DNA from: Pseudodesulfovibrio cashew
GTDB lineage: Bacteria; Desulfobacterota; Desulfovibrionia; Desulfovibrionales; Desulfovibrionaceae
DNA length: 64,000 bases
Direction: 5' to 3'
Assembly: GCF_009762795.1 (NCBI RefSeq)
Contig: NZ_CP046400.1
Location: 1,527,501 to 1,591,500, forward strand
Shown piece after piece: positions 2,803 to 4,226 of this stretch (its first letter is position 1; the number at the start of each line of letters is the position of its first letter). The notes beneath the pieces were generated by a model. The model was not told the origin of the DNA, searched no databases, and saw nothing but the letters and a program-made list of their open reading frames with translations. The translations under genes and the position numbers were made by a program.

Positions 2803-2864
2803 CTTTTTTATTTTTCAGCACGGGTCTTGCTTTTTCTGTGCCGTACCGCACAAGGAGGAAGATT

Positions 2865-3152
2865 ATGCCCGCAATGGAACCGACGTCGGGGTTTGATCCC
2901 CGCATAGACCAACTGACCAGGAAGATACAGGAGCTCCGCGAGCGCCGTGGCGGCGCGCAGGGCGGCAGCGTTGACGCGGCCATGGACTCCGCAATGGACA
3001 TGGTCGAACGCAACACCGGACGGCGTGAGGCCCGCGAGGCCGGTTCCGCCCTCCAGGGAATTTCACTGGAACAATTCGCTCAGGGGACCGAGGCCCACAG
3101 CCTCGATCCCGGCAAGGTCGCCGATCTCATCGCCGACCCCTTCGAAGAGTAG
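2865..3152 (+). CDS. Small conserved-looking hydrophilic protein
   Basis: 95 residues. The start is set by AAGGAGG at 2850-2856, about 8 bases before ATG 2865; an in-frame upstream start at 2838 lacks such a site. The protein has no signal peptide or membrane segment. It starts with a likely helical part (DPRIDQLTRKIQELRERRGG), has a Gly-rich link and then a helical segment (DAAMDSAMDMVERN), and ends in a short acidic tail (DPFEE). Expected to be cytoplasmic. I do not recognise the family. It is monocistronic, with a strong terminator right after the stop. Confidence 0.65.
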   Translation: MPAMEPTSGFDPRIDQLTRKIQELRERRGGAQGGSVDAAMDSAMDMVERNTGRREAREAGSALQGISLEQFAQGTEAHSLDPGKVADLIADPFEE

Positions 3153-3372: not shown

Positions 3373-3401
3373 TTGCGCGGTCCCTTCCGCAGGCGTATAA
3401 A
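3373..3401 (+). promoter_or_regulatory. Candidate sigma-70 promoter of structured RNA 1
   Basis: TTGCGC (3373-3378) and TATAAA (3396-3401) are separated by exactly 17 bases, which predicts a transcript start near 3408-3410, just before the first structured element. Nothing coding follows on this strand before the terminator at 3634. Confidence 0.6.
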
Positions 3402-3408
3402 TGAATCA

Positions 3409-3634
3409 AAGGCTGAGTTCCCCGCAAGACGGGGAAAGTTACAAAACCCAGACGGAGGGTGGGAGGAAATAGACACCGATTTCTTCTCTTTGAAATATGG
3501 CGAACAGAGTCGCCCCGCTCACAGAAAGAGCACCGTGCGCCAATAATACCGCATCAGGCCGTCATAAAGTGTATATTTTGAAATGTCTGGCCCTGATGCA
3601 AAGCCGGATAACCCGGCCCGGCGCACTTTTTTTT
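3409..3634 (+). ncRNA. Structured non-coding RNA 1, related to RNA 2
   Basis: About 225 nt between a promoter-like sequence and a terminator. Visible hairpins are TTCCCC/GGGGAA (about 3418-3436), ATTTC/GAAAT (about 3480-3496), GCGA-N6-TCGC (3500-3513), and a three-way junction closed by GTGCGCC/GGCGCAC (3535-3541 with 3619-3625). That junction holds a long GCATCAGG/CCTGATGC arm and the arm GCCGG-ataa-CCCGGC, and T8 follows at 3627-3634. It shares ACGGAGGGTG (3452-3461), the GCGA hairpin, an AAAGAG/GTGCGC segment and the tail with RNA 2 in the same order. I do not recognise it as 6S, tmRNA, RNase P, SRP or a common riboswitch. No gene follows closely on this strand, so a trans-acting RNA is more likely than a leader. 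Confidence 0.7.
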
Positions 3635-3752
3635 GGCCTTTGTCCGTTCTTGAAATCCCTTTTTTTGCCGTCCCGCTTAATCTTCTTCTCGCCTCAACCC
3701 GCCGTCCCTTCCTCTGGAGGAAGGATTCATCTTTTTCGCACTGCGCGGGGGG

Positions 3753-3780
3753 TGGACAAATTCCGCATGATGCTTATGTA
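3753..3780 (+). promoter_or_regulatory. Candidate promoter of structured RNA 2
   Basis: TGGACA (3753-3758) and TATGTA (3775-3780) are 16 bases apart and predict a start near 3788. This gives the second RNA its own transcription unit, separate from RNA 1, whose terminator is at 3619-3634. Confidence 0.5.
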
Positions 3781-3787
3781 TTGAGTA

Positions 3788-3989
3788 GAGGGAATCAGGG
3801 TCGGAAGGGATAGGCCCATGAGATATATCGAGGCAACCTTAACGGAGGGTGCGAAGCGATAAAACCTCACAAGACCATATATCAGCGAGACGAGTCGCGA
3901 CCCCAAAAAAGAGAAGTGTGCGCATGAAGCCCAGGGCTGCGGGGAAACAGCCAGGGACTGCCGGGTAATCCGGCCAGCGCACTTTTTTT
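3788..3989 (+). ncRNA. Structured non-coding RNA 2, related to RNA 1
   Basis: About 200 nt. GGGTCG (3798-3803) pairs with CGACCC (3898-3903). Inside lie GATATAT/ATATATC (3822-3828 with 3877-3883), GAGG/CCTC (3830-3833 with 3865-3868) and the ACCTT/AGGGT arm carrying ACGGAGGGTG (3842-3851), and a GCGA-N6-TCGC hairpin (3885-3898) that competes with the outer stem. The 3' part is a junction closed by GTGCGC/GCGCAC, with arms GGCTG/CAGCC and GCCGG-gtaat-CCGGC, ending in T7. It has the same order of blocks as RNA 1 at nearly the same spacing (43 against 48 bases from the ACGG block to the GCGA hairpin). No adjacent gene reads in the same direction. Confidence 0.7.
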
Positions 3990-4039: not shown

Positions 4040-4226
4040 AGAGTCCGCAGCGAAGGTGCGGAAAAGGGGATGCAAGGGACATGGCTCCTTGCCCGCCGGA
4101 GGCGAAGTCTCCAGATATTCGCCGCCACAGGCGGCTTCGATCTCTGATTTTTATCTGAATTTAACTCTTAATTCATTTGCTATGCCCGAGAACCGCAGGA
4201 GCGCGGTCCCCGGGCTTGTTTTTTTT
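4040..4226 (+). ncRNA. Third structured element or transcript end in the RNA island
   Basis: Downstream of RNA 2 lie further hairpins: CCGCA/TGCGG (about 4046-4062), CAAGGga/tCCTTG, GGAG/CTCC and GCCGCC-aca-GGCGGC. An AT-rich stretch follows, and then a terminator: GCCCG (4184-4188) with CGGGC (4211-4215), inner ACCGC/GCGGT, and T8 at 4219-4226. The T run is only on the plus strand, so the terminator serves plus-strand transcription rather than the converging nitroreductase gene. It shares no sequence with RNA 1 and 2, and its 5' end is not defined. Confidence 0.4.

Follow-up and report, generated by a model that had tools for sequence, protein, structure and literature searches.

A stretch of 64,000 nucleotides from Pseudodesulfovibrio cashew, hereafter the window, carries on its + strand two related, predicted small-RNA genes, and the question raised by this locus is what kind of RNAs they encode and how such RNAs would act. 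The pair is flanked on one side by genes for an alpha/beta hydrolase and a small unassigned protein, and on the other by a convergent gene for a nitroreductase with ferredoxin domains. A previous sequence-only reading of the locus took the two RNAs for a duplicated, trans-acting RNA that it could assign to no named family. For Desulfovibrionaceae, one of the major families of sulfate reducers, little turned up on regulation by RNA, and conserved, self-standing RNAs in bacteria without detectable Hfq or ProQ would offer a handle on RNA regulation in such organisms.

Here, we describe a comparative analysis of the two RNAs, RNA 1 and RNA 2, and of their relatives. We conclude, with a probability of roughly 0.62, that they are paralogues within a family of structured small RNAs that lies outside Rfam, is confined to Desulfovibrionaceae as sampled, possesses its own promoters and junction terminators, and probably acts in trans. 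Comparison between genomes supports the homology of the RNAs, their predicted promoter boxes, the compensated helices, the changing gene neighbours and the wide distribution of the family; expression and action in trans are inferred, and the term trans-acting, fairly inferred as it is, should be read in that sense. The parts of the previous interpretation that stand on Rfam searches and comparison are the homologous structured RNAs, their separate promoters, the absence of a gene directly behind them in the window and the lack of a named family.

Results

Architecture of the two RNA genes

RNA 1 (3408-3634, + strand, about 227 nt) and RNA 2 (3787-3989, + strand, about 203 nt) score 66.5 and 59.8 bits, respectively, with a core covariance model that had both of them in its training set. 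The starts at 3408 and 3787 are estimates from the promoter positions, and the re-derived ends agree to within about one base with those read earlier from the sequence. All of the elements that the two RNAs had been said to share could be located in the window. By comparison across relatives, the RNA 1 promoter comprises TTGCGC (3373-3378), 17 bases and TATAAA (3396-3401), and the RNA 2 promoter comprises TGGACA (3753-3758), 16 bases ending in TGCT and TATGTA (3775-3780), both on the + strand. Alignments of relatives place the conserved strand, ACGGAGGGTG, at 3452-3461 (+) in RNA 1 and at 3842-3851 (+) in RNA 2. It is followed by a signature hairpin, recognized by covariation, which in RNA 1 reads GGCGA-ACAGAG-TCGCC (3499-3514, +), that is, a GCGA-N6-TCGC core (3500-3513) extended outward by one G-C pair at 3499/3514, and in RNA 2 GCGA-GACGAG-TCGC (3885-3898, +).

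Each RNA ends in a predicted three-way-junction terminator enclosing two inner hairpins, at 3535-3634 (+) in RNA 1, from covariation and folds, and at 3918-3989 (+) in RNA 2, from folds. The RNA 1 basal stem pairs GTGCGCC (3535-3541) with GGCGCAC (3620-3626), within which GTGCGC occupies 3535-3540 and GCGCAC 3621-3626; the RNA 2 stem pairs GTGCGC (3918-3923) with GCGCAC (3977-3982). A GCCGG/CCGGC arm lies at 3603-3607/3613-3617 in RNA 1 and at 3960-3964/3970-3974 in RNA 2, and the T runs, on the + strand like the arms and stems, are at 3627-3634 and 3983-3989.

The assignment of a separate promoter to each RNA is upheld by the relatives. The two-box pattern of RNA 1 is present in 32 of 32 RNA 1-type copies (31 with 17-base spacing and one with 16), and that of RNA 2 in 20 of 31 RNA 2-type copies (19 with 16-base spacing), as against 6% and 4%, respectively, of 125-mers drawn at random from these loci; both patterns were written after the alignments had been seen. 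Promoter boxes were matched in 23 of 49 copies from other genera. A generic scan of the window listed neither promoter nor either terminator, the latter because the loops are too large for the rule of the scan. From comparison and folding, then, each RNA is predicted to have its own sigma-70-type promoter and an intrinsic terminator that closes a three-way junction, as befits an independent small RNA.

RNA 1 and RNA 2 are paralogues

In a DNA search of 60 relatives, 33 matched, all of the same genus, Pseudodesulfovibrio, and the 47 loci fetched from this genus, together with the window, contain 32 RNA 1-type and 31 RNA 2-type sites. Two copies are present in 28 of 30 same-genus genomes among the matches listed. 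The relatedness of the two RNAs was assessed with profiles trained on one type only, with the window left out, against 48 sequences; all cross-detection figures come from these single-type profiles, since iterated profiles could have mixed the types. The single-type profiles detected the opposite-type copies of the window at E 2.8e-10 and 1.6e-9, which bears out the claim that the RNAs are related, and at E 1e-4 or better they recovered 19 of 31 RNA 2-type and 31 of 32 RNA 1-type sites, matching nothing beyond other-type sites in the 48 sequences. A two-sequence search of the window copies alone gives E 1.3e-4, so the evidence for homology rests mostly on the relatives. On this comparison, RNA 1 and RNA 2 are judged to be paralogues.

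The pair is arranged in the order RNA 1, RNA 2 within 1 kb in twelve loci and within about 2.2 kb in three more; in many other relatives the two are separated by some 12 to 137 kb or sit on separate contigs, an arrangement that favours independent units. A tree of the core sequences groups one g32 copy and one g34 copy with RNA 2 (support 0.96 and 0.87), and the second g34 copy with RNA 1 (support 0.91), suggesting that the split between the types is older than these genera. This tree is weak, being built on about 80 bases, and it places one RNA 2-type copy (L077) and five RNA 1-type copies (L051, L071, L076, L077 and L078) outside the main cluster of their type. Thus the description of the pair as a duplicated RNA holds as far as paralogy by cross-detection is concerned, and the duplication itself seems, on this weak tree, to be ancient rather than local.

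Conserved helices and a junction terminator

The folds are better than those of 200 of 200 shuffled sequences for RNA 1 and of 195 of 200 for RNA 2. In the signature hairpin 95.2% of alignment cells are paired (71 distinct sequences), 50 cells carry changes on both sides as compared with 12.1 in shuffles, and the closing pair is A-U in 39, G-C in 23 and C-G in 9 of the 71. Two of five covariation measures for this hairpin are not exceptional; the observed number of pairs with both-side changes was reached by 19 of 500 shuffles, and that of further pair types by 172 of 500. Thirteen sites, including RNA 2 of the window, gave no hairpin in the automated extraction, the rule for which demanded a loop starting with A.

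The 3' domain of RNA 1, aligned for 28 of the 32 copies with the most diverged (L071, L076, L077 and L078) left out, has 91.7% of cells paired and 12 pairs changed on both sides; none of 500 shuffles reached any of five measures, and sliding the partners drops pairing to 22-42%. The terminator stem is replaced wholly between genera, as in GTGCGCC/GGCGCAC, GTGAGCCGA/TCGGCTCAC, GAGATTCGCC/GGCGAATCTC and GATTTGCC/GGCAAATC; its automated extraction gave no stem or a plainly wrong one at some other sites. For 19 representative segments, the ends of which were picked by eye, the basal stem was compared with that of shuffled sequences. At most 4 of 300 shuffles were as good in 14 segments, while the numbers were 17 for RNA 2 of the window, 12 for the first copy of L117, 18 for L109 and 7 for L137; the test failed for genus g17, with 177 of 300.

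A strict rule for a three-way junction was satisfied by single folds of 31 of 32 RNA 1 and 19 of 31 RNA 2 sequences, as compared with 27% (RNA 1) and 22% (RNA 2) when the inside of the stem was shuffled. The remaining twelve RNA 2 folds form an extra pair or two past the stem and then two hairpins, and the RNA 2-type copies L072-L075 carry GCCT/AGGC as the last arm in place of GCCGG/CCGGC. RNAalifold on the RNA 2 alignment returned two helices with 10 pairs and no both-side change, which we attribute to misaligned arms.

The compensatory changes in these helices are those of a structured RNA family. The earlier statement that sequence differs while pairing is kept is therefore sustained by covariation in the signature hairpin and the 3' domain and was not borne out for the 5' regions. 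In single-sequence folds, the conserved strand has a mean unpaired value of 0.27 in RNA 1-type, 0.42 in RNA 2-type and 0.43 in other-genus copies, as compared with 0.44, 0.48 and 0.45 for all bases; the strand is thus not predicted to be especially open.

The family is found in Desulfovibrionaceae

Of 199 genomes in the taxonomic family, 81, representing 14 of 44 genera, were hit by a model made from RNA 2-type copies. With the core covariance model, built from 72 sequences, 107 of 247 genomes of the order Desulfovibrionales were matched, in 24 of 51 genera, under the strict filters used for all large genome searches, which lose weak matches. All 107 fall in one family, Desulfovibrionaceae. 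Twenty of the 24 genera were matched below E 1e-4, and the matches in g28, g47, g50 and g52 are weaker; in genus g52 no match is listed for 18 genomes, and that of a further one (G290) is weak, at E 8e-4. The most matches in one genome were five (G152). In a sample of the phylum, 9 of 247 genomes were matched at E 0.01. Three of these, from Desulfovibrionaceae, lie below 1e-14; the six others fall between 0.001 and 0.007, where chance would give about 2.5 matches and the E-values of the core model are rough, so that in this sample matches stand clearly above noise only in members of Desulfovibrionaceae.

Several choices define these sets. Extraction yielded no core at 3 of 112 sites and misplaced the anchor in a few RNA 1-type rows; the cross-genus core alignment holds 72 of 109 core references, the others being misplaced or close relatives that were left out; and one weak antisense match in L144 was dropped from the 50 matches used downstream.

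An exact pattern matched 17 stretches of a genome collection, 16 from Desulfovibrio-type bacteria and one labelled only Proteobacteria. Viral spread of the family was considered and rejected, as one exact pattern matched 0 stretches among viral contigs. Members occur in the cultured strains Pseudodesulfovibrio pelocollis SB368 and Solidesulfovibrio alcoholivorans DSM 5433, which makes searches for a partner and for targets feasible.

In a genome of genus g21, a c-di-AMP riboswitch (RF00379, 97.9 bits; L137:646-781) was observed to precede a tandem pair of family members by about 2.2 kb.

Relation to described RNAs

The earlier reading could match the RNAs to no named family, and in a search of the window with Rfam 15, 0 of 4227 families reached the gathering score. 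Three sub-threshold matches nearby had E 1.9 or worse, and none of them overlapped RNA 1 or RNA 2. The 6S RNA (RF00013), likewise a stand-alone RNA of about 200 nt, was rejected as an identity: the 6S RNA of this genome is at a separate locus (G000:C1:630091-630274), and the window does not reach the gathering score of that family. No description of these RNAs was found in the literature searched, which excluded most subscription journals and supplements. The family is thus one that is not in Rfam 15 and for which the literature searched yielded no description; as a family of bacterial small RNAs it is of a known kind, its terminator being unusual and its setting one without detectable Hfq or ProQ.

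In having two related small RNAs side by side with separate promoters, the locus resembles PrrF1/PrrF2 and OmrA/OmrB. These pairs depend on Hfq, however, which was not detected in the Desulfovibrionaceae genomes tested. RNA 1 and RNA 2 are also, unlike those pairs, strongly diverged from one another, and on the weak core tree the pair seems to predate several genera.

Discussion

Candidate partners of the RNAs

Hfq was detected in none of eight Desulfovibrionaceae genomes (G000, G016, G233, G078, G219, G099, G086 and G164), in a search that found it in 5 of 14 control genomes, and ProQ in none of the same eight, with ProQ/FinO detected in 1 of the 14 controls (E. coli). A published survey of strain G20, which is outside these eight genomes, reports an 'Hfq-binding' RNA in that strain (PMC11124144).

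The most conserved elements of the family are the ACGGAGGGT strand, an AAATA-like A-rich box and the hairpin with a loop ending in GAG. All three recur in the two paralogues and beyond the genus, so a single shared binding partner is most likely; the divergent 5' part and arms would equip each RNA for a role or targets of its own. With neither Hfq nor ProQ found in the genomes tested, the partner of these probably trans-acting regulators would be something else, for which CsrA, another RNA-binding protein or the ribosome would be candidates. We entertain, tentatively and at clearly lower confidence than the conclusion given at the outset, a broader version in which the RNAs would form a family-wide global regulatory pair in bacteria without Hfq and ProQ, the near-invariant strand and GAG hairpin would bind the common partner, and the unusual multi-branched terminator would form part of the functional structure. 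Exact pairing of the conserved strand to genome targets was tried and rejected: its exact complement occurs at 5 genome sites, one of them in RNA 2, as against 7 for the reversed control, and there is no enrichment.

Among the rival explanations, the best supported is that CsrA binds at one site; next comes binding of the ribosome through GGAGG. If the RNAs bound and titrated CsrA in the manner of CsrB/CsrC or RsmY/RsmZ, they would join a well-known class of paralogous small RNAs, including RsmX, with which they share an ANGGANG-like site and a CsrA gene in the genome; CsrA was found in 12 of 12 genomes. ANGGANG is the core of CsrA sites, the conserved ACGGAGG fits it, and the motif averages 1.03-1.18 per RNA as compared with 0.37-0.47 in shuffles, with RNA 2-type copies carrying on average 2.87 ANGGA versus 1.44. 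CsrB/CsrC and RsmX/Y/Z, however, carry many sites, whereas about one is conserved in RNA 1 and RNA 2, which are without an Rfam match and in which GGA is slightly above shuffles (5.97 versus 5.50, 5.55 versus 4.77 and 6.18 versus 5.20); a many-site sponge was rejected on these counts. The one hairpin tested over the conserved strand (ACC/GGT) has 71.4% of cells paired and no both-side change, and four g52 genomes possess CsrA yet gave no RNA match. We therefore regard titration of CsrA as improbable.

An RNA linked to the ribosome or to translation, in which GGAGG would mimic a Shine-Dalgarno sequence and bind the 3' end of 16S rRNA, appears to us slightly less probable again. On visual inspection, the variants retain either GGAGG or GGGGG, both able to pair with CCUCC, and a start codon at a usable distance behind GGAGG was not seen to be kept. 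The flanks of GGAGG (mostly C before it and mostly GT after it) are conserved as well, however, and they do not extend pairing with the anti-Shine-Dalgarno sequence.

Gene neighbours and a possible role in cis

A cis-acting leader or riboswitch-terminator would require a downstream gene, and the trans-acting reading had included the remark that no gene lies directly behind the RNAs. In the window this is so: RNA 1 leads only to RNA 2, which has its own promoter, and RNA 2 is followed by 252 bases and then a gene on the opposite strand. Across genera the neighbours vary, and no conserved same-strand downstream gene was found. Such a gene is present at part of the RNA 2 loci, seven Pseudodesulfovibrio loci having RNA 2 32-99 bases before a same-strand efflux-type gene, and in genus g19, where an HD-GYP gene comes immediately after the RNA in 5 of 5 loci examined. 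A role in cis is thus possible in some lineages; as an account of the RNAs as a whole it is very unlikely, and the c-di-GMP neighbours add little to it, since GGDEF domains number 25-44 in each of the four genomes counted.

Least credible of all is a short coding gene in place of an RNA: open frames 57-95 codons in length do overlap this region, but none of six frames in or next to the RNAs has a Pfam match, on which ground a protein-coding identity was rejected, the start codons of the overlapping frames are not maintained in relatives (alignments judged by eye), and the helices covary.

A general link to c-di-GMP genes was also considered and set aside. GGDEF, EAL or HD-GYP neighbours occur at 22 of 88 loci, which fall in about four lineages, and with 25-44 GGDEF domains in each of the four genomes counted the link is weak. 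In genus g19 (L114, L115, L116, L143 and L144) the RNA is flanked by a divergent MerR-like gene and an HD-GYP gene in 5 of 5 loci examined.

Two further features were observed around the pair in the window. Downstream of RNA 2, a further GC-rich hairpin with eight consecutive T after it (4184-4226, + strand) precedes the convergent nitroreductase gene and is possibly a terminator or another short RNA. Adjoining RNA 1, the frame at 2862-3149 encodes a protein of 96 residues without a Pfam match, and proteins that by eye resemble it are encoded beside RNA 1-type copies in other species.
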